Assembly (NCBI RefSeq): GCF_000447755.1
Contig: NZ_AUNE01000046.1
Coordinates: forward strand, 1 to 38,500
Direction: 5' to 3'
Source: Bacteriovorax sp. BSW11_IV
Lineage (GTDB): Bacteria; Bdellovibrionota; Bacteriovoracia; Bacteriovoracales; Bacteriovoracaceae
DNA: 38,500 nucleotides
Part shown: positions 1 to 27,613 of the stretch, piece by piece
How the letters are laid out: each line of letters opens with the position of its first letter
Position numbering within the stretch: position 1 is the first letter of the stretch
Position numbers and translations under genes: made by a program
Notes under the pieces: generated by a model
Database searches by the model: none
What the model saw: the letters and a program-made list of their open reading frames with translations, nothing else
Told to the model about the DNA's origin: nothing

Positions 1-695
1 ATGATGTGTTTAACACCCTCTAGAATGATTTCATCTTTTGTATCCATCTGCTTTGAAATTTCTTCGAGATTTTCACCAATAGGAATAATAACTAAGTTTG
101 CAATGATTACTCCGTACAGAGTTGTAATAAGACAAACACCCATTGCTGGACCAATCATTTTCATGGCATCAGCACCACCAAGGTTTGCAAGAAGTACGAT
201 CATCCCAATAGTGGTTCCCATCATTCCAAATGCAGGAGGGAATTTTCCAAGAGATTTAATTTTTTTCGTATCATCACTTCTAAGCACACTCATCTTGCTT
301 GCTCTTTGCTCGAGGATCTGAATTACTTTTTCAGTTTCTAAAATTCCATCAGCAATAAGTTCCATCGCTTCTTTTAGAAAAGGATCTTGTGCTTTAGGAA
401 CAAGTGACTCCAAGCTTTCACCTGATCGATATGATTCACATATCTTCATGATGTCTTTGATGACATTTGAAGTATCAACCATTTTTCCTTTGAGAAATTG
501 CGTAAAGAATATTTTAAAGAGACCGCCAATTTTATTCAATTGAAATGCAACTGAAGTTGCAGCAAATGTTCCACCGAGAACGATGAACAAAGAAGGGCCA
601 TCGAAAAATATTTTTAAGTCTGAAGATGACAGTCTAAGACCAACGAAAAGAACTACACCTGAAATGATGAGTCCGATTAAAGAAAAAATATTCAT
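1..695 (-). CDS. motA: MotA-type flagellar motor stator protein, C-terminus cut by window edge
   Basis: This is the proton- or sodium-channel stator subunit that, with MotB, pushes on FliG in the flagellar switch. Reading the minus strand from an ATG at 695-693 gives about 231 residues before the window ends. The start MNIFSLIGLI is followed by a second hydrophobic segment (SLFIVLGGTFAATSVAF). A cytoplasmic helical region comes next, containing LKEAMELIADGILE. The typical PAFGMMGTTIGMIVLLANLG and LITTLYGVIIANLVIIPI membrane pair completes the visible part. GGAG lies 7 bases before the ATG. The missing C-terminus and a probable motB would be just left of the window. MotA and PomA are hard to separate by eye. 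It could serve the ordinary flagellum or another FliG-like rotor; the family call itself is secure. Confidence 0.9.
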   Translation of the reverse strand, partial: MNIFSLIGLIISGVVLFVGLRLSSSDLKIFFDGPSLFIVLGGTFAATSVAFQLNKIGGLFKIFFTQFLKGKMVDTSNVIKDIMKICESYRSGESLESLVPKAQDPFLKEAMELIADGILETEKVIQILEQRASKMSVLRSDDTKKIKSLGKFPPAFGMMGTTIGMIVLLANLGGADAMKMIGPAMGVCLITTLYGVIIANLVIIPIGENLEEISKQMDTKDEIILEGVKHI

Positions 696-2916: not shown

Positions 2917-5900
2917 ATGAAGTTATTTTTGTCGTTGATTGCACTATCGCTACTACTGAGTTCATGTGTTGGAACAGTGGAAGATAAAAATCCAAAACTA
3001 TCGAAAAGTGCCGCTACTGGTGGTGAAGAAATCATGTTTTCGGGAGTAAACGAAGTTATTCCTGTATCAGATGATAAAGTTGAGGTTTATTTTTATCCAG
3101 CATCTGGAAATGTTAGTGATATGACTTATCAGATTTTTGTAAACAATACAAAAGTTCCGATTGAAGTAAAGGGAGAGAGTTTACAGTTAAATCAATACGG
3201 TCAGTATATGTATACAGTGACTGGATTAAAAGTATTCACACAGTATAGCTTTTCTGTTGGGGTCAGAAACGCTAAAGAAAATACTGAATCAAATTCAAAT
3301 AAGGCCTTGTTTGCAACAACTTTTCCAAACTATACTGCTGACTTTGGTGGTGTTTCAAAAGTTTATCACTCAAGTGGTGATCTTGGTAAAGAGCAAATCG
3401 AAGTAGAATGGGTTCCTGCGGTTTCATTAGGTTCATCTTTTTCTCCAAAGCCTAATGACCCAGTCGCTTATGAAATTCGCTATATGCAAGCAGATGAAGG
3501 AAAGCCTACGGATCTTCTAAATCCAAATCATCCTGCAGTTAAAGTTTCAATGAAGCCAACAACTCTTGGTTCTAACCCACAGTTGAGTCAGGAAAGAAAA
3601 AGATCTATCCCAGGTTTGAGTCCAGGGAAAAAATATTATGTTCTAGTTCGTGCTATTCATAAGGCGTACGTTGATTACAAGACTGAACCAGGCTACAAAA
3701 CAGAGCAGAATAATAAAATTTTATCAGTAACTACTCTTTCTGATTCTGGTCTTTTTGATTGGGATGCTGCGAGTGTAAAATATGAAACACCTATCGGAGA
3801 AGAAGCTCTAAGCCGCATTGATCTTCGTTGGGATGGCGCTTTAGGTCCATTTAAAAATTATCGTGTCTATTATATTAAAGTCGGTGAAGCAACAGAAACA
3901 TATGAAGATGTTGCGGCGAAGCCAGATACTCTAGACAGTACGACAATCGATGCTTTAAATGGGACAGATGATTATCAAGTTGCCGCGGCCGATGCTCTTT
4001 CATATCAAATTACGGGGTTAAGTTCATACGCTTACTACAAAGCAACGGTTGTTGCCTGTGTAACTTCTGGATGTGCAGATGGTTCACGCATTATTGGTGA
4101 GGAAGTCTTCTTTAGAGTAACTCCAAAACTTGCTCCATTTTCAGGTCTTCTTGAAATTCAAGACCCAACAGATATTAATAAACTTGATGAGATTGAAGTG
4201 AAGTTCGATCCTCCTGTTACAACAGCGGGTTATGTTAATAAATTTGAACTTTATTGTTTTGATAACTTTGATGATAATAATCCTGATGAGCTTCTCTATA
4301 ACATTGCAAGTACAAGCTCTAAGCCAAGCTGTGCAGGTTTAACGAGAATTACGGCTTCTCCGAGTGATTTTTCAAGTTATAGCTCATATTCAAAAATAAA
4401 AATTAAGGGAAGTTTTTTTGGTCCCAATGATGTCGTTTCAGATAAGACATATTGTTTTGGGGCCGTTCCAGTTATCGAGGGAACAAACTTCGTAAATAGA
4501 AATCTCAACTCAGCAATCATTCGTTGTAAAGTGGTCAAAATTAAAGTTCCAACGAAGGAAGAGTTTCCAGGTCCTGCAAATACTTGCACAGTTGGTGCAG
4601 ATAATATTTCAGTAACATGGGATGAACCAGAGTCAGGGATCTATAATCGTTATGAAGTTTTCTGGAAAGAGGATGATGGGACTCCGTTTAGTTTTCAAGA
4701 TGCAGTTAATGGTCTGTATAACTCACAAGATAATTTAACGACTTTAAATTTTACAATTAATACACTCCTTCCTGGTAAGAAATATCAGTATGGTGTGCTA
4801 ACTTATGTAGCAGGAGCTAATAAGAAGTATTCAGAATTTAATACAGGTATTCGCACATGCCAAATCCCACTACCAACTCCAAAATTTGGCGAATGGGTTG
4901 ATATCTTTGCCGTTGGTCCAAAAGCAAATGGTCTTGTCCCAAGACGTGATAATAGTGCTCATGGTTTTGAAAAAGCATACCTGTTTGAAACTTTGAACGA
5001 TAATGGTCAGCCGATAGAAGTTCCTGTTGAGAATTATGCAGGTAACAACTATTCACCAACAACTGAATTTGAAAATCAATTTGCATCTGTAAGCAGTTCT
5101 GTGAATTTTCCTGGAGTATATGGTAAGGCCCAGGGTGACCCTGACGGCATTTACATGAACCAATACTCAAATAGTGGGATTGTAAGGATTGCGTGGAAGG
5201 ATATTACTTTCAATAGCAATACTAAAACGATGACTGATTTCGTCGGAACATATGAAACTGCGGCCCTGAAAAAAGATAGAAAGTACGGGTATAAAGTCTA
5301 TCGTTCAGATAATGGTCAAAAGACTTGGACAGAGCTAACAAGTTCAAGCTTTGCCTTCCAGACTCCATTTAATGCAGGACTTTTACACGCTGTAGATTAC
5401 GCTGAGGCACCACGTGCAACAGACGATGCAATCACGCCAATTAAGGCCGTGATGTTTACTGATTATTCAGTAAAACATGCAGGTCTCGATGGAAATAGTG
5501 CTCGTGCAAGAGTTTACTACTATAAAGTTGTTCCAGTGTTTAATGGTGAAGAGCTACGTTATGAGCGTGAGAATACAAATCCGCAACATATTATCAAAGT
5601 AACTCTTCCTCCAGAAAATATGGCCCTTGTTCATAGACTAATGGCCAACAGACAAACATGTAATGAGATAGGTAAATCATACTCAAAAGATGTTAGCCAG
5701 CATTACACATGCACTTGGAATGGTGTAGGAGCTCGTGGTCTTGCAGTACCATGGGTTCCAGGTGCTACAGTTTATGACTTTGGCAGTGACCTTCTTATTG
5801 ATAGATTTGAGCTTGGGTGTAACTTCACACGCGGAGATTATCAAAATATTAATAGTGCTTATTCTGGACCATTGTCAGGTTTCTTAGGGGATAGTTCTGG

Positions 5901-8091
5901 TGGTGGAACATTTAAGGGATGTTTATTCAAACAAGGATCTCTTGCACAAACAAATGGTGGATCTACTCCTGCAGATGGAGATACTTATACAGATAGAGCA
6001 ACTTATAGAGTTGGTGATTGTATAGGAGAGTCCTTCTCTCAAGTCTATAATGAAACTTCTATTTGTCCTGATATTACAAAAGCAAATTACGACTATTTAA
6101 TGGTTCCAGGAATTGTTAATGGTTTGGGGCTAAATCAATGTCAGAACCCAAGTAATTTATTACCTAATATAAGTGATACCTATAATAATTCATTTTTGAC
6201 AGATGAGTCTGCTCAAAGTGAATACGGAGCTGTTTTTTATAACAGAGACTTCTATTCTACTAGTGAAAATTATGGACTGACTTCGATTAGAGGAGGAGGT
6301 GCAAATCCAGGTAATCCTCATCGTTTAAGAATGAATAATCAAGGTCGCTATCCTTCACGTTGTATGATTAACATTCCTGTTGCAGATAATTCTCCAGGGG
6401 GAAATGCTTTAATTAAACAACGCTGGATTCCTGCCAACATGTTGACTGACCTTGTTTATGATGGACTTACTAATAATAAGATTGATATTGCAACAGTTCC
6501 AATGAGTGTTGTTGAAAGTATGACTCAATTATTTGATAGTACTTTCAACTCTGTACCAAATGCTGGGTATAGAGCAAATTCAGCTCTTTATCGTTACGAT
6601 GAAAATAGCACACCTGTTGCAAGAATTGTATCGTCTAATGATGCAAAACTTCCTCCGATTAATGGTTTGAATCATGATCAGGCAGATGCCTTTTGTTCAA
6701 CATATACGGTTGAAGTTGGATCATTGAATGATTCAACAAACACATTTAGTGTCGAGGAAGGTGGTCTTAATAAACGAATGATGAGAAGAACAGAGGGGAT
6801 TGTAGCCTCAGCTTATCCAAAGACATTTAGTCTAACTGATATTAATAACCTTGAAAGAGGTGTGCGTACAGAAACGGGAACAGGGGCATCTGCAATCTTA
6901 TATAATGCAAGTTGTAATGCCTTTTCTCGAAGTATCTTGAATGGACAAACTCATAATGAGATTGAAGCAGGTCTTGGCATCTCTGTTCGTTTTGGTGACT
7001 TACAAAATAAGAGACATACAAATGATGGGGCCATCATTTTTAGTGGTTCAAGCTTTTTTGATCATGAAGGTAGTGACTATAGTACTCAATCTTGTGTAAG
7101 CCGCTATGGCCTCCAAGATATTGTTGGAAATATGAGAGAGTATAGTTCTGAGAGAATTTTTTGTAACTACGATGGAGAGGAATTTAAAATTGGGACAAGC
7201 TATCAGTCAGCGGATTCAATTGAATTTAATAATGGAGATCTATTCAATGCATCTTCATTCACTCCATGGGTACAAAGTTCACCAGATACTGGAAGATGCT
7301 CTTTAGTTGAGGCCGGAGGAGCTAGAGGAGCAACTTTCACTGCAGGAAGTTATATGGTTCCGCAGTATGATATGTTTGGTAATTTGAATTCGGCCATGAT
7401 TACTGCAACGAATACAATTGATGAATATAGTATTTCATACTTAAGAAATGGGGATGGATTCTATTTAGACTTTGGTCAAGATAATCTTGCTCCACCGTTG
7501 AGTATTAATGATACATTGGCCCTTACTGATGAGTATCCTGTAACAACTAGAAAAAGAGATGTGGGCGTTGATCCAAGAAGAGGAAAATATTTCAGCCCAA
7601 TTGCCGGGATTCCTCTAGAGTGCGCGAATGGAACTTGTTTAAATTCTACTGATAATTTAACGATATCCACAACTGGATTACAGGCAAAAATAGGAGCACC
7701 TGATACAGACTTTGTTGTTCCTCACTTTCCGATTACTAATAGCATGATTATCTCTGATGGGATGTCTGAGATTACTCAAAGTGGATCAACTACGATTAGT
7801 GCTACAAATTCTGTAAGTTATGACATTACATACTTGGATTCTATTGATCCGAAGGCCTACGTAACTCGATCGACAACTGATCCATTGGCCGAGGGAACTT
7901 TAGTTAGATGGGCCAATTGGAGAGTAACGAGAGATACTTATATGTATTTCGAAAATTTCGGAAGTAAGAGTAATGAGTCCCGTCCTGGACGCTATAGTGC
8001 GACAGTACTAGGAAGAAGTGAAGGTTTCCAAAAATCTGGAACTGAAGCTGGTGTTCGATGTGCAGTGAGAATTAATGAAGGGAGACCGTAA
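2917..8091 (+). CDS. Giant lipoprotein: Fn3 repeats plus FGE/C-type-lectin-fold C-terminal domain
   Basis: A 1724-aa lipoprotein with signal MKLFLSLIALSLLLSSC and lipidated Cys17. Residues 17 to about 640 match the whole upstream protein in order: CVGTVEDKNP at the start, and KVPTKEEFPG near 544 against KTPTQDEFPG in the neighbour. From about 955 onward the marks of the SUMF1/FGE-sulfatase fold appear in the right sequence. These are IDRFELGC near 960, DQADAFC near 1254, YGLQDIVGNMREY near 1397 and a closing GVRCAVRI near 1712. They correspond to the family's EVTN, DAxAFC, GLYDMxGNVWEW and GFRCA blocks. The enzyme's catalytic cysteine pair before the last block is not seen, so this is more likely a lectin-like or structural domain than an active oxidase. 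AGGA lies 7 bases before the ATG. The function, perhaps ligand binding at the cell surface, is inferred. Confidence 0.8.
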   Translation: MKLFLSLIALSLLLSSCVGTVEDKNPKLSKSAATGGEEIMFSGVNEVIPVSDDKVEVYFYPASGNVSDMTYQIFVNNTKVPIEVKGESLQLNQYGQYMYTVTGLKVFTQYSFSVGVRNAKENTESNSNKALFATTFPNYTADFGGVSKVYHSSGDLGKEQIEVEWVPAVSLGSSFSPKPNDPVAYEIRYMQADEGKPTDLLNPNHPAVKVSMKPTTLGSNPQLSQERKRSIPGLSPGKKYYVLVRAIHKAYVDYKTEPGYKTEQNNKILSVTTLSDSGLFDWDAASVKYETPIGEEALSRIDLRWDGALGPFKNYRVYYIKVGEATETYEDVAAKPDTLDSTTIDALNGTDDYQVAAADALSYQITGLSSYAYYKATVVACVTSGCADGSRIIGEEVFFRVTPKLAPFSGLLEIQDPTDINKLDEIEVKFDPPVTTAGYVNKFELYCFDNFDDNNPDELLYNIASTSSKPSCAGLTRITASPSDFSSYSSYSKIKIKGSFFGPNDVVSDKTYCFGAVPVIEGTNFVNRNLNSAIIRCKVVKIKVPTKEEFPGPANTCTVGADNISVTWDEPESGIYNRYEVFWKEDDGTPFSFQDAVNGLYNSQDNLTTLNFTINTLLPGKKYQYGVLTYVAGANKKYSEFNTGIRTCQIPLPTPKFGEWVDIFAVGPKANGLVPRRDNSAHGFEKAYLFETLNDNGQPIEVPVENYAGNNYSPTTEFENQFASVSSSVNFPGVYGKAQGDPDGIYMNQYSNSGIVRIAWKDITFNSNTKTMTDFVGTYETAALKKDRKYGYKVYRSDNGQKTWTELTSSSFAFQTPFNAGLLHAVDYAEAPRATDDAITPIKAVMFTDYSVKHAGLDGNSARARVYYYKVVPVFNGEELRYERENTNPQHIIKVTLPPENMALVHRLMANRQTCNEIGKSYSKDVSQHYTCTWNGVGARGLAVPWVPGATVYDFGSDLLIDRFELGCNFTRGDYQNINSAYSGPLSGFLGDSSGGGTFKGCLFKQGSLAQTNGGSTPADGDTYTDRATYRVGDCIGESFSQVYNETSICPDITKANYDYLMVPGIVNGLGLNQCQNPSNLLPNISDTYNNSFLTDESAQSEYGAVFYNRDFYSTSENYGLTSIRGGGANPGNPHRLRMNNQGRYPSRCMINIPVADNSPGGNALIKQRWIPANMLTDLVYDGLTNNKIDIATVPMSVVESMTQLFDSTFNSVPNAGYRANSALYRYDENSTPVARIVSSNDAKLPPINGLNHDQADAFCSTYTVEVGSLNDSTNTFSVEEGGLNKRMMRRTEGIVASAYPKTFSLTDINNLERGVRTETGTGASAILYNASCNAFSRSILNGQTHNEIEAGLGISVRFGDLQNKRHTNDGAIIFSGSSFFDHEGSDYSTQSCVSRYGLQDIVGNMREYSSERIFCNYDGEEFKIGTSYQSADSIEFNNGDLFNASSFTPWVQSSPDTGRCSLVEAGGARGATFTAGSYMVPQYDMFGNLNSAMITATNTIDEYSISYLRNGDGFYLDFGQDNLAPPLSINDTLALTDEYPVTTRKRDVGVDPRRGKYFSPIAGIPLECANGTCLNSTDNLTISTTGLQAKIGAPDTDFVVPHFPITNSMIISDGMSEITQSGSTTISATNSVSYDITYLDSIDPKAYVTRSTTDPLAEGTLVRWANWRVTRDTYMYFENFGSKSNESRPGRYSATVLGRSEGFQKSGTEAGVRCAVRINEGRP

Positions 8092-11000
8092 GTGAAACTT
8101 TCAAAGATTTTACTCTTGGTACTATCTTTTTCTTTGTTTGCCTGTAAGCCGGCCGATCAAGAAAAAGTTAAGGTCAAGACCGCAGGGATTTTTGAGCCCG
8201 TAGAGATTGAAGTACAAGGTGGATTGGACCGTGGGGAATTTCTCATTGGTTCTGATCCCGATGTTATTACAATCAGTGTTCAAAACAATTCAACCTTTCC
8301 TTTGACAGATTTAAATCTTGTCTTTGAAGAAGAGGAGTCTAATGCTGGAGTCAAGTTCAATCCGGATGAAGAAGGGAAGTCTGCTTCGCCAGGATACCTA
8401 GGGACATGTGCATCTAGGTTAGAAACTAAGCAAAAGTGTTATTTCAAGCTTTCTTATTCACCAACAATTAGTGGTAATTTAAAACAAATTATTTTTTTGA
8501 AATATAAAAACCTTGTGGATTCAAAACAGGAAACTTTTGAACTCACTATGTTTGCAGGAGAGGCCGCTTCATTAGTTTTTACGAGTGAACAAATTAACTA
8601 TTCTTTTGGTGTTATTGAAAGAAGTGATAGAGAAGTTTTTAAACAACGTCTTATTATCGAGAATGCTGGAGGTTTAACGGCAAAAGAAATGATTCTTGAT
8701 ATGATCAATAATCCTGTGAGTAATTCTTATCAAATTACGGAGAATACTTGCGGGAATGAATTAAAAGCAAAAGAGCGTTGTGAAATGGAAGTCATTTTTA
8801 CTCCAATGAACTGGGGTGATGGAGCTCCTGATGGAAATATCGATCAATACTATTATTCAAATATCTCAATTCCATATATTCGCGACCCATATGGTAAGAA
8901 ATCTGTTTTAAATGCATACTTCTCAGTAAAGTCATTTAACATTAAAGGGCTAATTAAGCATGCTGGTCTAGCCGTAATTAATTTTGATGACCTAATTGTA
9001 GGTAATTTTGCTTCCAAGCCATTTAAAATTAAAAACGAAGGTGATAAAGAAGCAATCCTACATTATATTGATATCAAAAATGCCGGTGGAGTAATTATTG
9101 GTAGCTGCGTGAAAGTCGCAGGTCAAGATTTGCTAGAATGTAGAGATCCCGCACAGATTGCTGTTGCGGGTGCGAGTGTTGCTTTGCCAACACTTCCTTT
9201 TAAAGTTCGTGATGTAAATAATTGTATTACACCTTATGATTCTTTGAATTATTCTAGAGATGCTGAAGGTGCCATTACTGATTCAAGTGTTATTGAAGTT
9301 GCGGGTGTCGTTGGCGATAGTCAGGGACAATCTTGTCTATTCGATTTGATCTTACATCCAAGTACAACTTTTGAGACGAGCGGTGATTTTTCTGGTTGGA
9401 CATTAACTTTCGTCTATGACTCAACTTGGAAAGGTTTCAGAGATATGATGGGTGTTGGTGGTCCTAGTAACTTTAATGTTGGAACAGCGAACTACTTTTC
9501 TGCTGCGAAAATCAATACTGCATTCTTTGAATATGCTGGAGATAACTCATATTCAAATTTAGATGCTGCCGATAATGGAATCTTTTCATATGATCTTGGG
9601 CGAGTTTCTCTAATTTCAGATGCGGCCTATAAGCAACAAGCAAAATTTCGTTTGAAGAATATGGGAGATAACGTAGCAGAAGTTTTATCAATTCGCGATG
9701 GTCAAAATTTTAATATTACTGATACATCTCAGAATATTAATAATTATTATTTGAGTGCAAGTCATTCTGGTTGCGCCTTTGTTTCTCCTAAAGGAGGAGA
9801 GTGTGATGTGCGCTTTCAAATTGCACCAGTTGCAAGCTCGAACCCCGATGGTATTTTGGCAAAGGCCGAAGAAGATGCTCAAATGTTTGACGATGTTCCA
9901 ACTGAAACCAAAAAGTTTTATATAGAGTATAAAGATGGAACTACTTATAACGATGATCTAACTTTAAGAACTAATCGCATTGTTGAAGTTAAAATGAAAG
10001 CGAAGCTTGTTAGAAAAGGTTTCTTAGTTTTTGAAGATACAAGTTCGAATCAAGGTGTTATTCCTTCGAACAAAATTGCAGGAAATACTGAATACTTTCA
10101 TGTCAAATTAAAAAACGTAGGAACAGGTCCTATACCTTATATTGAAGCTGTAAATGGTAAGATGATGGTACGTCCTAATAATAATGCTTACCCATTCGAA
10201 ATTGTCGATAGGCCGGGACCTGCTTCAGGAGCATCAAAAGATTGTTATGAACTTATCAATTTTACGCCTGCAAATCATCCGATCTCAACTACTCCGTACT
10301 TAGGACAATTACAACCTGGAGAGAATTGTACGTTGTCTGTAAGAATGAAACTTCGTTCAACAGATATTTATGCTTTTAGTCTCTATTCTGAAGAGACTTC
10401 TCCAGAGTGGGAGAGGAAGTTCTCGGTTGCGAAAAATGGAACTTCGGAGGCATGGGAGTATTATAATTATAATGGTTCTGACCAGCTTCTTTCATTTAAA
10501 TACTATGATGGTGATGGTGTCTCGGATCCTGCTAACGGGTATTATCCAACACTTGAAAATTATGGAAATTTCCACACCATTAGTGGTGGAACAAATGGTG
10601 ATTATCGCGTAAATATTAAGTTTGTATCTGAAGGATATATCGTACCTACAAACCCATTTCCAAGTTTAATTGCTATTTTATATCGTCAACCTGTATCTCT
10701 TCCATTCTTGCCAGTAGATGGTTGGGGAGATTCTGTCGCCATGAAAAGTGTTCCACTTAAATGGCGTGATATCTCAAAATTAACAGGAGCAATTCCTGCT
10801 ACATTTTTCTCTACTGCGATTACTCATACAGCATCATTAATGTCCACGACTCATACAACTGATTATGCTTATCATGGTGGTACTTACCCAACAGGTGGCT
10901 CATATACGGGAGCAATAACTCTTTCAAGAAAAGGGGCCAATATAAATACAGGTTCAATTAATATGATTGCTAATAATGGCGATCCAGAAATTGGTGTGAC

Positions 11001-13002
11001 GCTGGCCCCTGACAAAGGGAGTTTACAGTTGGCCTTTAATCCAACAAATGCCGGAGTTTATACAAAAGAAGTTACCATTCAGTATTTTGGTGGGAGAAAA
11101 ACTCTTGATGAGAATACTTTAGTGTATAGCAATACTAACTCTACAATTTCAATTAAGCTTTTCTTTGAGGCCACTGATGAGAATAAAACAATCTCATTGG
11201 GATCACAGGCCTATACAGTTTATTACGATACAGGAACTGAATCAGTCATTGAAACTTTGGATGGCGCGACTGAAAGTTATTCACTTGATGTTATGAAAAT
11301 GGTTCCCAATCAAACGGGGAATTTAAAGGCGATCAAAGGTTCTGAAGTTTATGCGAAAAAGAGATTTGTTGTTACAAACACAAGTCCTTACCCAATTAAT
11401 CGTGTCGATGCCATGATTAAAAGAACTCTAGACTCTTCAACTGTTGAAAACAGTGCCGGTGGATTAGGCTATTCATTAACTTCTAATACTTGTAGCAACA
11501 AGGCCCTACTGTCTGGGGAAAATTGTTACATTGATGTTAAGCTCAAGGCCTCAACTTCTGAGCCAGATTTATCAACTAGAATATTAGCTGTAACGTATGA
11601 AATTGCTGATAAGCAGTATCTCATATCTGCAATTAATCTGAACTTCCAGGCAGCAAGCCCTGCCAAGGTTAAAGTTGCAGGGGTTAACTCCGAGAGTATC
11701 AATAATGAGCTTGGTGGTGTTATCCAAGGCTCTTATCCTGTTAAGTTTGGATATTATCAAGATACGCTTCACCCGGTTCTCAATGATTCTCCTTTTCAAG
11801 AAATGTTGGTGCAAAATATTGTTCTAACTAATAACGTTGTTGAAAAAGCAAGTTTTCTTCATCAATACAGAACTTATGTTGGGAATATGAATGCAGTATT
11901 GCCAGCTGGTGCTTATGTCACAATGTATGATGATGGTGAAAATACTGTGTCTGCAACGAGAGCTTGTTTCTACGGAGACAATGAAGGCGGACCACTTCCA
12001 TCTGATGAGTGGGGCTTTAATCAGGACTCAGCATCCCCTTGTGTTTTAAAAGTATTGAAGAAATTTAATGATGACTTTATTGCACAAAAACTTCCTGCTG
12101 CATTTAACTATGTGAAGTTAACATTCTATAATAGTGGAAGATCATCAGTGGATAATCTCTATCTTCACTTTCAAGGTTTTGTGGAGCCCAATAGATCGAA
12201 TTCGACTGGTGATATTATGAATGTTGTTGCTACAGATGAAGGAGATCTTTCATTCTCATGGAACGACTATACTCCATCAAATCCAGGTTGGGGAGCAATT
12301 ACAGGTTATAGAGTTTTCTACAGTGCAACGAAAACAGCATTGAATAATCTGTTTGAAACATCAGCGAGTTTCACTGATACAACATCACCAGAAGTAGTTC
12401 TTAGTGGACTTGTTCCATCTCGTTACTATTATATTCGTATTGCCGCGAAGAGATTGTCTCCTGGTGGATCGACTTATCTATCTATTAGTAACATGACAAC
12501 TAGAGAAGTCGTCATACCTCCTCAAGATATGTTCTATGATTACGATCTTAAAGTTGTTGTCGATACGTATATTAGTCCTAAGAATAGTCCATTGTTTGGA
12601 ACTAAGAGTGAAGTGGTAACTGGTTGTGATAAAGAGATTTCAAACGTTGTTAAAAATGGCGCCATGATTCAGAAAAGAAAGAAGCTCGTAAACTCAACAG
12701 TTTTTGACGTTATAAAGAGTGATCCTTCTTTGAGTAATTATACTTATCAGGTTGTACCGCATTGGATGAGTGATCCTGTAACTGACATTGCTCCGATCTT
12801 TGCTCCAGTGTTTAACTGTTCTGAGACGACCGGGAATACACCAGATCTGATGACTTTTTATATGAAGAGTTGTTCTGATTGTAGTTGTAATCAATTGTCT
12901 AAGATCGATGGCGGGGATGGTGAGAACTTACCTCCATCAGCACTTTTCTACGTAGACGCTAACGCTTCAAGTGCTGCCCAGAGATGCTACTTTACTCAGT
13001 AA
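8092..13002 (+). CDS. Giant choice-of-anchor/Fn3 lipoprotein
   Basis: A 1636-aa lipoprotein starting at a GTG that directly follows the upstream stop codon, with AAGGGAG about 7 bases before it. The signal MKLSKILLLVLSFSLFAC places the lipidated cysteine at residue 18. The body holds repeated beta-sandwich modules. Several end in a Cys, then a turn rich in K, G or E, then Cys and an alternating strand: for example CASRLETKQKCYFKLSYSP near 106 and CSNKALLSGENCYIDVKL near 1136. This is the pattern of choice-of-anchor D/ASH (Hydin-like) repeats. A clear Fn3 module sits near residues 1375-1470 (GYRVFYSA, YYYIRIAAK). The C-terminus carries a cysteine cluster, SCSDCSC. No enzyme motif is visible. 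It is the third gene of the lipoprotein operon; a shared cell-surface role is inferred. Confidence 0.78.
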   Translation: MKLSKILLLVLSFSLFACKPADQEKVKVKTAGIFEPVEIEVQGGLDRGEFLIGSDPDVITISVQNNSTFPLTDLNLVFEEEESNAGVKFNPDEEGKSASPGYLGTCASRLETKQKCYFKLSYSPTISGNLKQIIFLKYKNLVDSKQETFELTMFAGEAASLVFTSEQINYSFGVIERSDREVFKQRLIIENAGGLTAKEMILDMINNPVSNSYQITENTCGNELKAKERCEMEVIFTPMNWGDGAPDGNIDQYYYSNISIPYIRDPYGKKSVLNAYFSVKSFNIKGLIKHAGLAVINFDDLIVGNFASKPFKIKNEGDKEAILHYIDIKNAGGVIIGSCVKVAGQDLLECRDPAQIAVAGASVALPTLPFKVRDVNNCITPYDSLNYSRDAEGAITDSSVIEVAGVVGDSQGQSCLFDLILHPSTTFETSGDFSGWTLTFVYDSTWKGFRDMMGVGGPSNFNVGTANYFSAAKINTAFFEYAGDNSYSNLDAADNGIFSYDLGRVSLISDAAYKQQAKFRLKNMGDNVAEVLSIRDGQNFNITDTSQNINNYYLSASHSGCAFVSPKGGECDVRFQIAPVASSNPDGILAKAEEDAQMFDDVPTETKKFYIEYKDGTTYNDDLTLRTNRIVEVKMKAKLVRKGFLVFEDTSSNQGVIPSNKIAGNTEYFHVKLKNVGTGPIPYIEAVNGKMMVRPNNNAYPFEIVDRPGPASGASKDCYELINFTPANHPISTTPYLGQLQPGENCTLSVRMKLRSTDIYAFSLYSEETSPEWERKFSVAKNGTSEAWEYYNYNGSDQLLSFKYYDGDGVSDPANGYYPTLENYGNFHTISGGTNGDYRVNIKFVSEGYIVPTNPFPSLIAILYRQPVSLPFLPVDGWGDSVAMKSVPLKWRDISKLTGAIPATFFSTAITHTASLMSTTHTTDYAYHGGTYPTGGSYTGAITLSRKGANINTGSINMIANNGDPEIGVTLAPDKGSLQLAFNPTNAGVYTKEVTIQYFGGRKTLDENTLVYSNTNSTISIKLFFEATDENKTISLGSQAYTVYYDTGTESVIETLDGATESYSLDVMKMVPNQTGNLKAIKGSEVYAKKRFVVTNTSPYPINRVDAMIKRTLDSSTVENSAGGLGYSLTSNTCSNKALLSGENCYIDVKLKASTSEPDLSTRILAVTYEIADKQYLISAINLNFQAASPAKVKVAGVNSESINNELGGVIQGSYPVKFGYYQDTLHPVLNDSPFQEMLVQNIVLTNNVVEKASFLHQYRTYVGNMNAVLPAGAYVTMYDDGENTVSATRACFYGDNEGGPLPSDEWGFNQDSASPCVLKVLKKFNDDFIAQKLPAAFNYVKLTFYNSGRSSVDNLYLHFQGFVEPNRSNSTGDIMNVVATDEGDLSFSWNDYTPSNPGWGAITGYRVFYSATKTALNNLFETSASFTDTTSPEVVLSGLVPSRYYYIRIAAKRLSPGGSTYLSISNMTTREVVIPPQDMFYDYDLKVVVDTYISPKNSPLFGTKSEVVTGCDKEISNVVKNGAMIQKRKKLVNSTVFDVIKSDPSLSNYTYQVVPHWMSDPVTDIAPIFAPVFNCSETTGNTPDLMTFYMKSCSDCSCNQLSKIDGGDGENLPPSALFYVDANASSAAQRCYFTQ

Positions 13003-13507: not shown

Positions 13508-14968
13508 ATGAGAAGCGCTCTAATACTCGTCATATTCATGTTTTCATTTTTCACTTTCGCAAATGAAAGTTCATCAACTACTTCAAATGAAATTCAAAAC
13601 TCAGAAAAAAAATCTGATCAAAAAGTAGATGAAAAGCAGGAAAAAAAAGAAGAAGAAATCATTGAAAAGAAAATGATCACCTTCGACATCACAAAGTTAA
13701 AAGACATGTCGATGAATGAAGTTTCTTTTATTCGAAAAAGTATTGTTGAGGCCGTATTTGCTGCAAAGATTTTTGAAATAACATTCGGTCATGTTGATAG
13801 CAAAATTGGAAAAAACAAAACATGGTATGAAATTAGCGTGTCACATAAAAGAGAAGACAACGGTCTTAGTCATATTGAATTTTATTTTAAAGAGAAGCCT
13901 TCAAATCAATTGATTAATTACATCTCAGAAAGAAATTTACCCAAGGCCAAAGTTCAGTATCGTTCAAGAGTTTTAGTTTACAAACTGATGTTTGGAAAAT
14001 GGTTTGATGAAAAATCTGGAAAATTAATTAAGCCAGAGGTTATCAATATTAAAAATACTGTCTCTGAAAAAGAAACAGAGAATGAATCAGTAAATGAAAT
14101 CAATTCAGAACAAGAACAATTACAAGAAGAAGAGAGCGTAGATGACTTTTCGGAGTCAGGAATAAAGAAGAGTAAAAAAGACGCAAAAGAAGAAGAGAAA
14201 AAAGAAGATAAAAAAGTAAGTGCAGCGAAAAAACGAAAAGTTGAGATACAAAAATACGATGCGCCTAATTTGAATTTAGAGAAGGCAAAAGTAGAACAGA
14301 AAGTGAAGATAGAACCGGGACTCAAGTGGATGTCCCGTTTTGATTATGCGATAGGGTATCAGCAAGAAGCGGCGACTTCTAATATCGCCGTTACTAAAAA
14401 TGAATTCTTAGAAACTGAAACAAGTGTAGAACGTCTTGTTCTCAAATTTTCAACTAGCTTTAGAGTAGAACAGTGGATACAGCACTTCCATACAGGTGGA
14501 GTAATCTCCAGATCAATGTCTGAAGAAGAATATAAAATCAAACCACGAATAAATTTGTTTGGAAATTTTAATTATGATCTTTGGTCAAGTTCACTCTTTA
14601 TCGGATTAAACGTTGAGTATGATCGACTTGGCTTCATTACTGCTCCAGAGCGTGGGGGAGGGTTAAAGTCTATCACGAGTAATATCCTTTGGACTGGAAT
14701 TGGCATCAGATATATCGATAGCTTCAAAAATCATCTTGTCGCTTTTGAGGGAGATATTAAAAGAGCATTGATTGCAAATGCCGATCTTGTAGATGAAGCG
14801 GAAAGCGTGCCCTTAGATGGTAATAAATTACATCTACAAGGAAGAGTTTCTTTATACCAAGGATGGGGAATAGGTCTGAGTTATGAAATGATCAGCCTGT
14901 CTTCTGTTTCAAGCTTGAATTTAGATAATACGCACTCCATTTATGGATTGTACCTGACATACAACTAG
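13508..14968 (+). CDS. Periplasmic/outer-membrane protein with charged linkers and a C-terminal beta-barrel
   Basis: First gene of the six-gene operon; family not recognised. From the ATG at 13508 it has 486 residues. The signal peptide is MRSALILVIFMFSFFTFA. A Lys/Glu-rich stretch occupies about 20-55, and a small alpha/beta domain about 56-165, ending in YKLMFGKWFDEKSGKLI. A second charged linker runs from about 185 to 250. From about 270 to the end there are alternating strands with aromatic girdles (RFDYAIGY, NFNYDLWSSSLFIGLNVEY, YGLYLTYN), typical of an outer-membrane barrel. In-frame TTG (13478) and GTG (13487) starts exist, but neither has a ribosome site at normal distance; I chose the ATG because it gives a compact signal peptide. 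The low-complexity linkers could span the periplasm or bind peptidoglycan, which is inference. Confidence 0.72.
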   Translation: MRSALILVIFMFSFFTFANESSSTTSNEIQNSEKKSDQKVDEKQEKKEEEIIEKKMITFDITKLKDMSMNEVSFIRKSIVEAVFAAKIFEITFGHVDSKIGKNKTWYEISVSHKREDNGLSHIEFYFKEKPSNQLINYISERNLPKAKVQYRSRVLVYKLMFGKWFDEKSGKLIKPEVINIKNTVSEKETENESVNEINSEQEQLQEEESVDDFSESGIKKSKKDAKEEEKKEDKKVSAAKKRKVEIQKYDAPNLNLEKAKVEQKVKIEPGLKWMSRFDYAIGYQQEAATSNIAVTKNEFLETETSVERLVLKFSTSFRVEQWIQHFHTGGVISRSMSEEEYKIKPRINLFGNFNYDLWSSSLFIGLNVEYDRLGFITAPERGGGLKSITSNILWTGIGIRYIDSFKNHLVAFEGDIKRALIANADLVDEAESVPLDGNKLHLQGRVSLYQGWGIGLSYEMISLSSVSSLNLDNTHSIYGLYLTYN

Positions 14969-14978
14969 GTTGGTAAAT

Positions 14979-15575
14979 ATGGGTCTTAAAAATAAGTATG
15001 ATGAAATTTTTGAAACACTTGGGGCGAGTAGAACCGTTGTTGAAGATGAGATTGTTTACTACGGTAGTTATGCCAAAGATACAATTGCGACAAGTGATTT
15101 AGAGTTATTATCAAATGATATTAAGAAAAGATTTGCTAAACCTTTTGAAGGCGCACAGGCGAAACTGCAAATTGATATTTCAACATGTGTAGAAAAAATA
15201 AACGTAGCAAAGATTATGAATACGTTAGATTTTCTTTTGAAAACATTTAGCCGCTTTATTTTGATTAGTAAAAAGTTTACTCCGACAATAAAAGTGAGTG
15301 TAAATAATTCTACACTAAGCTTGAGAGTCGTTTCTGCAAAGGTTGAAAAAAAGTTATTTGATGTTTCACGCATTCAAGACCTTTTAGTACAGGAAAAAAA
15401 GAACTTTATGTCTGTATCTGGAAGCAAAATTAAAGCAACTGTAGATTTTAACGAAAAAAGAGAAGAGATGATCTTTTATTCAGAAACGAATCTAATGAAT
15501 GAAAGTAAGTTGAAAGTGAAAAATAAGAAAAAACAATTGCATTCAAGTGGAAGGACCAATGAAAGAAGTTTGTAA
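14979..15575 (+). CDS. Small cytoplasmic protein, possible degenerate ATPase-like fold
   Basis: About 198 residues, with no signal peptide or membrane span; not recognised. The ATG at 14979 has AGG 9 bases upstream, whereas the in-frame TTG at 14970 is too close to any ribosome site. Predicted order by eye: an N-terminal helix, a strand (KLQIDIS, 62-68), a helix (INVAKIMNTLDFLLKTFSRF, 74-93), then paired strands (TIKVSVNN, TLSLRVVSAK, 103-121). This order resembles the core of histidine-kinase ATPase domains without the nucleotide-binding N, D and G boxes. It shares that pattern with the C-terminus of the next protein. The C-terminal tail is rich in lysine. The last 17 bases overlap the next gene, indicating translational coupling. 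Confidence 0.7.
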   Translation: MGLKNKYDEIFETLGASRTVVEDEIVYYGSYAKDTIATSDLELLSNDIKKRFAKPFEGAQAKLQIDISTCVEKINVAKIMNTLDFLLKTFSRFILISKKFTPTIKVSVNNSTLSLRVVSAKVEKKLFDVSRIQDLLVQEKKNFMSVSGSKIKATVDFNEKREEMIFYSETNLMNESKLKVKNKKKQLHSSGRTNERSL

Positions 15576-17136
15576 AATCGCATTTAAATACATTTTAGTG
15601 GCGATGCTTACCTCAAATGTTAGTTTTGCTAACTGGGAAGTTGATGGGTTTAAAAAACTCGGAACGAATTCATTAGAATCAACTTCAAAAACATACACTG
15701 AGCTTCTAGGGAGCTTAGAGAAAAATGGTGTTGAGAACAAGAAGATTCAAGACAAAATCAAAACACTAAATTCAAGAATGTCAGTTGTATTTAATGAGTC
15801 AAAGAGTTTACTTGAACACATTTATACTTCTTTGAAAAAAGATGGAAACTTAGAGGCCATTTTAGCAAAAAGATATTTAGATTGGGCAAATAGTAGAACA
15901 GGTGCTGCCGATCTGAAAATGTTAAATACTCTTGAAGGTTACTTAGGACATCTTGAAAGGGAAATTGTTCAAAGCAATAGAATGTCTACAACTATTAAAG
16001 TGGAGTTCATGCAAAGCTTTCGAGGAATTGTTAATAAGATCAATGAAGCTCGCAAACTTGATGTGGCCGTCCGTGGAGATTTCGCTGTGGCCCTAGAGGC
16101 ATCTTTGAAAACAAGAGTTGCCAACACAATGAAATCAGTAAAGGCCGATACAATTAAGAAATTGGAAGATAATAGTACTAGAAATATTTTTGTCGTAACA
16201 GCGGCAGGGCTTGTTGTATTGCTCGCTGGAGTTATGATTCGCAATCGACGCTTGAAAAAGAAAAATGCTGAGCTAGAAAATCAAGATTGGGGTCCGTATA
16301 TCAGAAGAAAAACTATCGAAGGACAGAAAAAGGCCTACGAAAGTTTAAAAGATATTGGTGTGGCCATGGTTGAGTCCAATGGTGAAATCTCATACGGTAA
16401 TGCTCTTTTTAGTGAAATGTTTAAAGACACGTTTACAAAGAAGCAAAAATGGGAAGATTTCTTTGGTAAAAATTTCAAGCGCGAGAAAACATTAAAAGGA
16501 GTTCACTCTCTTTATAAGTATCTTGGTGACGTTACTAGTGATTACGTTGTTCAAGTTTCTCGTCCGAATGAACATGGAAAAAGAGCATGTTTCTTTGTTC
16601 GCTTTGACTCTACAGTTCTAGCAAAAATTGGTAGTGAGAGAGTTGCGACATTAGAAAAGATGAAAGTGAATGTCTTAGATATTCTTGATGATATTATTTC
16701 CAGAGAAAGTTCATTAAGAGGTAGTCAGTATATTGAATTTGCTGAAGTTGATTACGCAAATGATCTTTATGTTTATATGCCAGAGGATCATGCAAAGGCC
16801 ATTCTTGAAAAATCTCTAAAGGCCGTATTTTCGATTCAAAGCCTTAAGAAGAATACACGCAGAGCAATTCTTAACGTAAAAAGAAAAGATAAGTGCCTTG
16901 TGGTAAGTGCAGAACTTCCTGGTATTCACCTCGATGTTAAGGATTTCTCTCAGAAAATTATTGGGGATCAAACTTTGAGCAATATCATGCGCGAAGTAGA
17001 GCATTCAAATAGAAATTTTGAAATCACGACAGTTGTTAAAAACGTAAAAGTGAACGGTGAAAGAGCTGTATCATTTGAATTACTTGTTTCTGACCTGGAA
17101 AATGTAAAGGTAGAACAAAGGGAATTCTCGCTGTGA
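15559..17136 (+). CDS. One-span membrane protein: periplasmic helices, PAS-like and degenerate kinase-like cytoplasmic part
   Basis: 525 residues from the ATG at 15559, which has GGAAGGA about 3 bases upstream. A GTG at 15547 would only lengthen the signal peptide. Signal peptide about 1-24 (ending NVSFA), helical periplasmic region 25-205, membrane span about 210-227 (FVVTAAGLVVLLAGVMI), a basic RNRRLKKK stop-transfer, then a cytoplasmic part. Residues about 255-350 look PAS-like (IGVAMVESNGEISYGNALF). Residues about 360-490 follow the order of a kinase dimerisation helix and ATPase fold, with a N-box-like helix (HAKAILEKSLKAVF) and AELPGIHLDV where DxGxGI would be. The catalytic His, Asn and glycines are missing. 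The layout is that of a sensor kinase that has lost catalysis; it might be a structural or signalling subunit of the complex. The functional reading is inference. Confidence 0.75.
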   Translation: MKEVCKIAFKYILVAMLTSNVSFANWEVDGFKKLGTNSLESTSKTYTELLGSLEKNGVENKKIQDKIKTLNSRMSVVFNESKSLLEHIYTSLKKDGNLEAILAKRYLDWANSRTGAADLKMLNTLEGYLGHLEREIVQSNRMSTTIKVEFMQSFRGIVNKINEARKLDVAVRGDFAVALEASLKTRVANTMKSVKADTIKKLEDNSTRNIFVVTAAGLVVLLAGVMIRNRRLKKKNAELENQDWGPYIRRKTIEGQKKAYESLKDIGVAMVESNGEISYGNALFSEMFKDTFTKKQKWEDFFGKNFKREKTLKGVHSLYKYLGDVTSDYVVQVSRPNEHGKRACFFVRFDSTVLAKIGSERVATLEKMKVNVLDILDDIISRESSLRGSQYIEFAEVDYANDLYVYMPEDHAKAILEKSLKAVFSIQSLKKNTRRAILNVKRKDKCLVVSAELPGIHLDVKDFSQKIIGDQTLSNIMREVEHSNRNFEITTVVKNVKVNGERAVSFELLVSDLENVKVEQREFSL

Positions 17137-17756
17137 GAAAAACTTTAGCATTACTCATATTTATGAGCTCGAATGTGTTTGCTGCGGGAAACGGCTTTCA
17201 CGATGTTGTTAGTTTTAATATGGGAATGATTAGCCATTCTGTAACTGAGAATGAGAGTACACTTATTCAAACAGATGATAGTGTGCAAACTGAAGATACT
17301 TCTGCAGTGGCCGCGAGCTCAGCTGTATCAGCAATTAGTTTTAACCTTAATTGGGAATTTAAAACTGAACAAAAGAAATCATATTTTGTGCAGGCTTTTG
17401 TTCCAATGATGACTACCGGTGGTGCTGGTGTCTTCTTGGGTGGGGTTGGAATGAACTGGTATCTCAATGATATGGGTTCAAAATACACATATGTTCAAAA
17501 TGGAACAGAACTAACAATTATCCCTAAATTCAAATACTACTGGGGTGCCAGTACTGGAATTGGGTATGTTGTTTACAACACCGAATCAGCGAAGAAAAGT
17601 GATGTTTTCTTCGATTTAGGTGTTCATGGTGGCGGTGTGTACGGAATTGGTACGAACAGAGGAATTAAATTAGAAGTTGGTGCAAGTCGCGCTACAGGTG
17701 TGGCCACAACTGGAATAAAAATCGGATTCTTTTTAGGAATGACTCAATATTTATGA
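17133..17756 (+). CDS. Small outer-membrane beta-barrel-like protein
   Basis: 207 residues. The GTG start overlaps the upstream stop by 4 bases, with AAAGGGA about 10 bases before it. Signal peptide MRKTLALLIFMSSNVFAAG. The mature part shows repeated amphipathic strands separated by Gly/Asn turns: SAISFNLNWEFKT, SYFVQAFVPMM, VFLGGVGMNWYLN, ELTIIPKFKYYWGASTGIGY, GIKIGFFLGMTQYL. This is what a barrel of about eight strands looks like. It does not end in the usual aromatic residue, so a periplasmic beta-protein is possible. The family is not recognised. Overlap on both sides shows it belongs to the six-gene operon and is likely made together with its neighbours. Confidence 0.72.
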   Translation: MRKTLALLIFMSSNVFAAGNGFHDVVSFNMGMISHSVTENESTLIQTDDSVQTEDTSAVAASSAVSAISFNLNWEFKTEQKKSYFVQAFVPMMTTGGAGVFLGGVGMNWYLNDMGSKYTYVQNGTELTIIPKFKYYWGASTGIGYVVYNTESAKKSDVFFDLGVHGGGVYGIGTNRGIKLEVGASRATGVATTGIKIGFFLGMTQYL

Positions 17757-18364
17757 AAATTTTAACTTTTTTACTTTCTACATTTGTTGCTCTTGGTGCT
17801 TTTGCATCTGAGTTTAATATTAATAGTAATCCAAGTGATTGTGATGTTTTTATTATCGGTGAAAATGGTAAAAAGAATGCCGTTGGTAAAACTCCGTATA
17901 AAGGAAACTTGGAAAGCTTGAAATCAACGTATGGTTTGACTGGTACGATGCAAGTCGAGGTGTATAAACCAGGTTTTGAAGCATTTAATATTTCAGTGCC
18001 TCTCATTAGCAGCTCTGCAGTAAATTTAAATGCCAATTTAGAAGTAGAAAAAGATATTAAACTTACTCAAGATGTTGATCTTCTTGTAACGGATCTTTTT
18101 GATGTACTGAGAATGATGAGAATTAAAGATTTTTCATCAGCTTTTGCAAAATTGGATAAGCTAGAGGCAAAGTTTCCTCAATACTCAATCATTTATGAGA
18201 TGAAAGGATCAATCTCGTATATGCAAAAAGAGTTTAAAAAAGCATTAAATTACTACAGAAAAGCTTTCGGTATTAATCCGAAAAATAGAGAAGCATATAA
18301 GATGAAAGTTTATCTTGAGAAGAAGTTTCAAGTTGCTGGCGATGTTACTGGAGGTAACGGGTGA
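17753..18364 (+). CDS. Periplasmic PEGA-domain/TPR protein
   Basis: 203 residues. The ATG overlaps the upstream stop (ATGA), the classic sign of coupling. Signal peptide 1-19 (MKILTFLLSTFVALGAFAS). Residues about 20-95 match the PEGA surface-layer type domain: FNINSNPSDCDVFI, then GKTPYKGNL, then VEVYKPGFEAF. Residues about 110-183 form two or so tetratricopeptide-like helical hairpins (KDFSSAFAKLDKLEAKFPQY; the second has the typical ALNYYRKAFGINPKN). PEGA domains are small periplasmic or surface beta-modules, and TPRs are protein-docking platforms. In this operon it is a plausible bridge between the outer-membrane barrels and the inner-membrane components. The domain call is good; the bridging role is inferred. 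Confidence 0.8.
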   Translation: MKILTFLLSTFVALGAFASEFNINSNPSDCDVFIIGENGKKNAVGKTPYKGNLESLKSTYGLTGTMQVEVYKPGFEAFNISVPLISSSAVNLNANLEVEKDIKLTQDVDLLVTDLFDVLRMMRIKDFSSAFAKLDKLEAKFPQYSIIYEMKGSISYMQKEFKKALNYYRKAFGINPKNREAYKMKVYLEKKFQVAGDVTGGNG

Positions 18365-20508
18365 GAAGAACGAATATATTCATTATTCTATCCATTTTCA
18401 TTTTTGGACAAATTTCATCTTTGGCCGAAATTGGAAATCTTCCAAGTCTAGAGTGGCAAAAGCAAGGTCTTGAAGACAAAATCAACGGTAAAGTTGAATC
18501 TCTTTTGCTTTCTATCTTAAAAAGAGATCAATTCAGTGTAGATGTTGAAATTGTATCGAATAATCCTGCTGATCCAGAATTTAATAAACCTCTTGATGCA
18601 AATGGGAAGAAAAAGGGCACTGGTATTGGCCCTAATGGTGAAGTAGAACTTTCTGAAGAAGAAAAAGCAAAGATTGAAGAAGAAAAGAAATTAGAAGAAG
18701 CAAAAAAGTCGAATGCTGCTATTAAATTCTCTGATGTAGAACCTGATGCAAATACAGGTGATCATATCGTATTTTCTAAATTTGGTATGGAAGCTCCTCT
18801 TATTGATGATTTTAAAGATTTTCAACCTGATGGGAAAATCTTTTTAACAATGGAAAATGATAACGATAAGAAGAAACTTGAAGAGTTGAAAGAAAAATTC
18901 AACGAAAAAGAAAAGCAATATCAAGAACGAATTAAAAAACTTCAATATGAAAAAAGCCAATCAGAAGGGCAAGTCTCTCCAGTTGAACAGATGTGGAAGT
19001 ATAACAACACAATTGATATTTTCAAAAATCTTAAAGAAGTGAATATTCTTGTTCGTTTAAGTGAAGGCCTAGATGAACCAGTTAAGAAGAAAATTGAAAA
19101 ATATGTTCGTGATCTTAGATTTAACTTAGGTTCCATTGAGCCATCTATCAAATTTGAGTACTCAATTCTTGGTAATGATATTAATCAACCAACGAAAATG
19201 GATAAGATGAAAGAGTGGCTAGAATACGCAAGTAAATATGCAACTCTATTTGGTATTGTTATTGGAACTATTCTCTTTGGTCTCATTGCAAATGGTCTAG
19301 TTAAGAAATACTTTGAACTTAATACAGGTGTTTCTAACACAGGTAATTTCAAAATGGATGGTGGGGCAGACCAAAAAGATTCTGCCAAAGAAGAAGGACT
19401 TCCTGCACTTCCTGGCGGATTTGATGCTGGAGAAATGGCCGTTGCTGGCCTTAACGGAATTGAGAGATTTAAGTTCTATATTAAGAATACACCGAATGAT
19501 GCCATCATGCTTGTTAAGAAATGGGTGCGTGGAGATGAAAAAGGATCTGATTCAGCTCTTAGGGCCCTTGTACAACAGATGGAGAACGATGAACTTAAAA
19601 TTATTTTTGGTTCATTATCTGAGAATGAGAGAACTCACTGGCGCAACTTGCTAGATAAGCCACTTCATGGTCCTGAGCTTTCTCGTGCTAATGACTTTAT
19701 TAGTAATCAGATTGTTCAAAGTGTTATTGTTCCTTCGACAATTGATGATCCTGAAACATACGATCTAATTCTGAAGTTAACTCCAGAAAAAGTCGTGGCC
19801 ATGGTTCAAGCAGATCCGAAAATGTCTGCCATCTTAATGAACGCATTAAGCTTGTCATTTGTTAACGAAGTTTTATCGAAATGTCCTGAGAATATTAGAG
19901 ATACTATTATTAATAAGTCTGTTGAAGTTAAAGCTAAAGATGTTGTTGCTGCTCAGGGCACATTAAAATCTCTTCTAGCGAAGTATGTTGAAACTGTTGA
20001 GGAGAAACCATTTGTTGAAAAATTATTGAAATTGATTCCAATGACAACTCCAGATCTTGAAGAGTCTCTATTTAAGGCCCTTGCTAGAAATATTAATGCC
20101 GATGTCTTGAAAACTACGGCATTATCAAATTTTCCTGCGGCCCTTATTTCAGAGTTGCCAGTACCATTTTTGAAATCAGTACTGTCTTCTTACCCATTGG
20201 AGAAAAAAGTTAAAATGCTTCTTTCTGTTGATGAAGAGATTAGAACAATTTTTATGGAAATCTTTGCACCAGAAGGTTCCAAGGCCAATGATCTTATTAT
20301 GATTGAATTTGAGTCATATGAGCGCGATGAAAGTGAAATGGATAAAATCACTGAAAATGCATCTAAATACTGGCACGACTTTGTTCTTTATACTCGAAAT
20401 GAGATTAATAAAGATAAGACATATTCTAAAGAGATTTCAGATCTTCTGGAAACTTGGAGTCAGGATATGGAAGTCACGAAGAAAAATCATTTACGCGAAG
20501 TCGCTTAA
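18361..20508 (+). CDS. FliF C-terminal-like/FliG-like fused inner-membrane protein
   Basis: 715 residues. The GTG start overlaps the upstream stop by 4 bases. Order: signal peptide about 1-22; LEDKINGKVESLLLSILKRD (37-56) and SVDVEIVSN, resembling the first half of the FliF C-terminal periplasmic domain; a charged coiled-coil linker (about 95-205); then VNILVRLSEGLDEPVKKKIE (227-246) plus IEPSIKFEYSIL, resembling its second half. A membrane span follows at about 292-313. Residues 369-390 (RFKFYIKNTPNDAIMLVKKW) match the FliG-binding tail of FliF (NPxxxAxLLRxWL type). The remaining 320 residues are helical repeats resembling FliG middle and C-terminal domains (TPEKVVAMVQADPKMSAI, SFVNEVLSKCPENIRDTI). 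FliF's usual ring-building modules and first span are absent, so it is not a normal MS-ring protein. Its place at the end of an envelope operon suggests a ring-like inner-membrane base. The assignment is by pattern, without a search. Confidence 0.72.
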   Translation: MRRTNIFIILSIFIFGQISSLAEIGNLPSLEWQKQGLEDKINGKVESLLLSILKRDQFSVDVEIVSNNPADPEFNKPLDANGKKKGTGIGPNGEVELSEEEKAKIEEEKKLEEAKKSNAAIKFSDVEPDANTGDHIVFSKFGMEAPLIDDFKDFQPDGKIFLTMENDNDKKKLEELKEKFNEKEKQYQERIKKLQYEKSQSEGQVSPVEQMWKYNNTIDIFKNLKEVNILVRLSEGLDEPVKKKIEKYVRDLRFNLGSIEPSIKFEYSILGNDINQPTKMDKMKEWLEYASKYATLFGIVIGTILFGLIANGLVKKYFELNTGVSNTGNFKMDGGADQKDSAKEEGLPALPGGFDAGEMAVAGLNGIERFKFYIKNTPNDAIMLVKKWVRGDEKGSDSALRALVQQMENDELKIIFGSLSENERTHWRNLLDKPLHGPELSRANDFISNQIVQSVIVPSTIDDPETYDLILKLTPEKVVAMVQADPKMSAILMNALSLSFVNEVLSKCPENIRDTIINKSVEVKAKDVVAAQGTLKSLLAKYVETVEEKPFVEKLLKLIPMTTPDLEESLFKALARNINADVLKTTALSNFPAALISELPVPFLKSVLSSYPLEKKVKMLLSVDEEIRTIFMEIFAPEGSKANDLIMIEFESYERDESEMDKITENASKYWHDFVLYTRNEINKDKTYSKEISDLLETWSQDMEVTKKNHLREVA

Positions 20509-27599: not shown

Positions 27600-27613
27600 A
27601 AAAGGTTTTGAGC

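Follow-up and report, generated by a model that had tools for sequence, protein, structure and literature searches.

A MotAB-linked gene cluster of Bdellovibrionota encodes a one-chain FliF-FliG-like protein and is a candidate flagellum-independent rotary motor

Among the closest described counterparts of the gene cluster analyzed here is the bacterial flagellar motor, with which it shares MotA and MotB, an RBM3-type ring domain, a single membrane span and a FliG M/C-type domain. Unlike the flagellar motor, the cluster comes without FliM/FliN, export apparatus, rod, hook or filament, and outer-membrane and giant surface proteins are present instead. A likeness to the Agl/Glt machinery of Myxococcus, proposed in the first-pass annotation of this DNA, holds for the overall plan: an ion-driven inner-membrane motor, a trans-envelope chain and outer-membrane parts, according to the literature. 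It does not extend to the stator: AglRQS is of the TolQR-like class and works without a FliF/FliG rotor, whereas the stator here is of the MotAB type, its MotB having a plug and an OmpA-type domain. General family searches of the cluster showed nothing homologous to Agl/Glt components. The T9SS/GldLM motor of Bacteroidota, also according to the literature, has a 5:2-type stator that drives surface adhesins, but its stator family and rotor parts are different. In Bdellovibrionota, the gliding motor, the adhesins and force transmission are listed as unidentified and as a major open challenge in a 2026 review (PMC13104615). A literature search, with most subscription journals outside its scope, found no published description of the cluster.

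The window, i.e. the whole stretch of DNA analyzed, is the complete 38,500-nucleotide contig C46 of the 3.65-Mb genome of Bacteriovorax sp. BSW11_IV (G000). Its map of open reading frames revealed six collinear, tightly packed genes on the plus strand at 13508-20508, termed g1 to g6. A gap of 10 nt separates g1 from g2, g2 and g3 overlap by 17 nt, and the g3/g4, g4/g5 and g5/g6 junctions are each 4-nt overlaps. Signal peptides were predicted for g1, g4, g5 and g6, and more weakly for g3; one membrane span was predicted in g3 (residues 209-227) and one in g6 (residues 296-314). Neither a signal peptide nor a span was predicted for g2.

The first gene, g1 (13508..14968, +), encodes an exported protein with an N-terminal α/β domain, a low-complexity middle and a C-terminus that, from its sequence pattern, is a putative barrel; diverged homologues were found at 11 other loci. 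For g2 (14979..15575, +), which specifies a cytoplasmic protein of 198 residues, counterparts in this position are confined to close relatives, and g3 (15559..17136, +) was likewise found only in these. The g3 protein combines a periplasmic helical domain and one span with a cytoplasmic part that appears PAS-like, a weak PAS_9 match having been obtained for a relative, and in its remainder resembles, as judged by eye, a degenerate kinase. Conserved across 15 aligned loci, g4 (17133..17756, +) specifies an exported protein of 207 residues whose sequence pattern also suggests a barrel. PEGA and TPR domains were recognized by Pfam in the periplasmic protein encoded by g5 (17753..18364, +), for which a 19-member alignment was made; its counterparts in distant relatives are lipoproteins. 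The last gene, g6 (18361..20508, +), encodes a FliF(RBM3)-FliG-like candidate rotor protein of 715 residues.

Upstream, the first 231 residues of a MotA stator subunit are encoded at 3..695 (−), in a reading frame cut at the contig end that gave NCBIfam PomA/MotA matches. Between motA and g1 lie three plus-strand genes for lipobox-containing lipoproteins: a 633-residue Fn3 protein (1014..2915; Pfam fn3, 1.7e-19; lipobox LLCSC), a giant Fn3 protein of 1724 residues (2917..8091; Pfam fn3) and a giant HYDIN/ASH-type protein of 1636 residues with Fn3 domains (8092..13002; Pfam HYDIN, 7.7e-7, and fn3). This arrangement recurs in three related genomes, G001, G012 and G027, where one strand carries motA, motB and a gene of ∼195 codons and the other a gene of ∼640 codons, two giant genes and g1 to g6. 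In these genomes, a reading frame of similar size (633-651 residues) occupies the place of 1014..2915, one of comparable size that of 2917..8091, and a gene like 8092..13002 stands immediately upstream of g1. A minus-strand gene for a lone CheY-like receiver domain (12996-13355), which had been put forward as a partner, is real; however, in G001, G012 and G027 the giant gene is followed by g1 with no such gene in between, and it was rejected as a partner.

The order of g1 to g6 is the same in G001, G015, G012 (with a shortened g3), G033, G027 and G023. Given this retention of gene order in related genomes, the operon arrangement is not due to chance, and the first-pass description of an overlapping six-gene operon is borne out. 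As a functional unit, by contrast, the six genes were drawn too narrowly: the unit comprises ∼12 genes, including those for MotA, MotB and the three Fn3/HYDIN lipoproteins (two of them giant), with g2 and g3 being members in a subset only. In G033 and G023, motA and motB directly adjoin g1, and in less closely related genomes they lie next to other block genes; the Fn3/HYDIN giants adjoin many copies of the cluster. Family f6 includes complete genomes on a single contig (3.7 and 4.0 Mb), and in these the genes for a FecR-like protein, g5, g6, g4, MotA and MotB form, in that order, one operon.

The core recurs widely in the phylum, contrary to the absence of co-occurrence that would have spoken against the first-pass proposal. 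When 369 Bdellovibrionota genomes were searched, a 19-member g6 profile gave matches in 74 of them at a threshold of 1e-6, and a wider profile gave matches in 101, representing 62 of 182 genera, at 1e-5. The PEGA-TPR gene g5 immediately precedes g6 in all 25 loci read, and a g4-like barrel gene lies beside this pair in 21 of the 25, six of these being assigned by place and length only. On counting higher-scoring MotA matches only, a motA gene was found within 25 kb of g6 on the same contig in 62 of 82 g6 loci (from 73 Bdellovibrionota genomes), at a median distance of 1.7 kb; most of the other loci are on short contigs, with MotA encoded on another contig. The proposed link to MotA is thus shown by synteny over the phylum. 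Genome G032 retains the block MotAB and the giants, yet gave no g6 match. Two further genes were observed at such loci: one for a putative exported protein of 3965 residues adjoins the block in G029 (L036:3163-15060), and a 353-codon gene after g6 (L023:6958-8019) has a product resembling the membrane and C-terminal parts of g3.

Scans of the single g6 protein against Pfam and NCBIfam gave weak matches only, including an MgtE_N/FliG signal, and family profiles were therefore built. With these, the weak FliG signal became significant. In a search of the PDB with the g6 family profile, Thermotoga FliG was the sole significant match (E = 3e-5), covering the M and C domains, and the MgtE_N model, which describes a domain related to FliG, matched 14 of the 19 g6 members. 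The hhalign score of g6 against FliG was 30.4, the highest score from shuffles being 21.4. When the N-terminal half of g6 was compared with the FliF profile, the best match fell exactly on helix 1 and strand 1 of RBM3 (score 41.4; E = 1.5e-4); none of 200 column shuffles scored as high, their maximum being 23.1. Other protein families of the block reached at most 21 against FliG or FliF, compared with 30 and 41 for g6. Neither RBM3 strand 2-helix 2-strand 3 alone nor the short RBM core alone gave significance by sequence against FliF in hhalign.

The fold of the periplasmic domain was modeled for a g6 relative from L001, with an alignment of two sequences of which it was the first. The prediction shows five elements of high confidence (pLDDT 80-94), arranged α-β-β-α-β, and an insert that separates strand 1 from strand 2. 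Foldseek ranked FliF first, at a non-significant E of 0.024, and the nine best PDB matches in VIA-align were all FliF RBM3 domains (Z 9.4-10.1), with the unrelated OsmC and MamM domains just under them (Z 8-9). The SctJ (EscJ) ring proteins share the ring-building-motif fold (EscJ, Z 7.5), as does SpoIIIAG, but these systems have neither a FliG domain nor MotAB. A full-length AlphaFold model of g6 was poor (pLDDT 44) and was discarded.

Profile comparison and predicted fold together support an RBM3-like periplasmic domain, while the assignment of the FliG-like domain, which is significant, is drawn from sequence profiles. Taken together, these data indicate that one g6 chain holds, after its signal peptide, an RBM3-like domain (approximately residues 30-66 and 221-268), the span at 296-314, a FliF-tail-like segment (368-389) and a FliG M/C-like domain (approximately 390-680). 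The match of the third element to the FliF C-terminal tail (ERF..NP.EA..LVKKWI) is correctly placed but, at P = 0.08, is suggestive only. In flagella, by comparison, the FliF and FliG parts are not one chain. Given that the RBM3 region starts directly after the signal peptide, g6 has no room for RBM1 or RBM2, and a full FliF with these domains and a first span is absent. The EHPQ motif of FliG, its FliM contact, is not conserved in the 19-member g6 alignment. A forced alignment, in a stretch of low confidence, pairs FliG Arg281 with a position that is Lys in 18 of 19 g6 members and Asp289 with one that is Asp or Glu in all 19, so that g6 would carry a positive and a negative charge where FliG has its own. 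In FliG, R281 and D288-D289 contact MotA (PMC12505986). Separately, most genomes of the window's family encode, besides flagellar FliG, stand-alone FliG C-terminal-like proteins of ∼140-150 residues; examples are G000:C52:162359-162766 and G000:C38:26769-27146, with others in relatives.

The MotA of the window is 64% identical to the block-adjoining MotA of G033, and a stretch of 25 residues that matches the C-terminus of MotA, followed by MotB, was found at the end of another contig of the same genome (C18; L040). MotB of the G033 copy contains MotB_plug and OmpA domains, which identifies the predicted stator as of the MotAB type with a plug and a peptidoglycan-binding OmpA-type domain. Among NCBIfam models, those for PomA/MotA fit this MotA better than those for TolQ/ExbB, and a test for an AglRQS-type stator was negative, the PomA/MotA models scoring best. 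Zorya ZorAB likewise has a MotB-type protein (weak ZorB matches were obtained), but a reading as Zorya defense was rejected, since no Zorya protein apart from this MotB match was detected and none of the six genes corresponds to ZorC, ZorD or ZorE. The reading frame at 32910-33728 was also considered as MotA and rejected for lack of a family match.

In a MotA tree, the 12 flagellar MotAs sampled, 11 of them from the window's family, formed one clade (support 100/99). Of 33 block MotAs, 29 lay apart from the flagellar MotAs of that family, and the other four (families f6 and f19) grouped with other MotAs; strict monophyly of the block MotAs was unsupported, the tree requiring four changes. One cytoplasmic position is Lys or Thr in the flagellar MotAs of family f1 (FLKKA, FLRTA) and mostly Glu in those of the block (FLKEA). 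In Bdellovibrio-like genomes, a role in the flagellum is also conceivable for the one MotA that adjoins the operon.

The cluster is probably a flagellum-independent, ion-driven trans-envelope rotary motor, powered by MotAB. In its best reading, stator and rotor parts of the flagellar type make up a motor that lacks an export apparatus, rod, hook and filament; genes for the last three were not recognized at the loci read. MotA and MotB would form stator units anchored in peptidoglycan, and g6, by way of its periplasmic RBM3 domain, would assemble into a ring resembling the MS-ring, with the FliG-like torque domain as part of the same polypeptide. Turning of MotA would push the FliG-like rim and so rotate the ring, which the PEGA-TPR protein g5 and the putative outer-membrane barrels g4 and g1 may couple to the outer membrane. 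The trans-envelope complex with a FliF/FliG-like base envisaged in the first-pass annotation is thereby supported. An energized machine of the Ton/Tol kind appears unlikely: here MotAB would power a non-rotating complex of g6 and the PEGA-TPR protein that exports, assembles or stabilizes the giant surface lipoproteins or the outer membrane. Barrel-like proteins, TPR domains and giant exported lipoproteins are indeed typical of secretion and assembly machines. The FliF and FliG homology of g6, the retention of putative torque residues and a stator nearer to PomA/MotA than to TolQ/ExbB point instead to rotation.

Ordinary FliF, and FliG where tested, is encoded elsewhere in most genomes that carry the cluster, and three MotAB pairs have been reported for the one flagellum of Bdellovibrio (Morehouse 2011, as described in PMC11323537). 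Both observations would suit an accessory of the polar flagellar motor, such as an extra ring or a second stator set. This is nonetheless very unlikely, given that the cluster brings its own rotor-like protein and that its distribution differs from that of flagella. Genome G107 (94% complete) holds two clusters, each with motA near g6, and, when searched for FliF, FlhA and FliM/N, gave no match to any of these; its sister G032 has no FliF above the cut-off and no FliG, FlhA or FliM/N. Conversely, the flagellated relatives G003, G008, G010 and G021 are without g6. Occurrence in a genome without detectable flagellar genes gives the cluster the appearance of a separate motor. That single-protein family searches find little might suggest a mere neighborhood of unrelated envelope genes, but conservation of order over many families and the repeated linkage to MotA already contradict this reading, which can be given almost no weight.

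For the rotary motor, the probable load would be the giant Fn3/HYDIN lipoproteins, as moving surface adhesins in gliding or prey-surface movement. Gliding or surface movement as the output is a tentative proposal, as is the fuller one of a new rotary machine in which a stator of flagellar type and a FliF-FliG rotor made of one chain turn a trans-envelope complex and so move giant surface adhesins, this machine being the gliding (prey-scouting) motor of Bdellovibrionota. The parts are homologous to flagellar ones, and the assembly is of no known kind of machine; it is perhaps the missing gliding motor of Bdellovibrio-like predators. One locus thus offers a concrete candidate for gliding motor, adhesins and force transmission together. 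If the proposal is correct, the presence of a FliG-type rotor in a machine other than the flagellum bears on the origin or reuse of the flagellar motor, and Bdellovibrio MotAB mutants may need to be re-read as not purely flagellar.

A gene for a PilZ-domain protein follows motB in G107 and G032, a hint of c-di-GMP control. In genus g32, the gene after block motB has 354 codons (L041:10113-11177, in G032, and L092:6264-7328), and its product has an N-terminus that looks receiver-like by eye, a membrane region and a C-terminal PilZ domain (E 7e-7 and 2e-7). Elsewhere in the window, genes at 24516-28474 encode proteins of 1027 and 288 residues with pilin-type N-terminal methylation motifs, the former being far above the usual pilin length, and the pair adjoins a gene for a MauG-type di-heme peroxidase (28485-30272).
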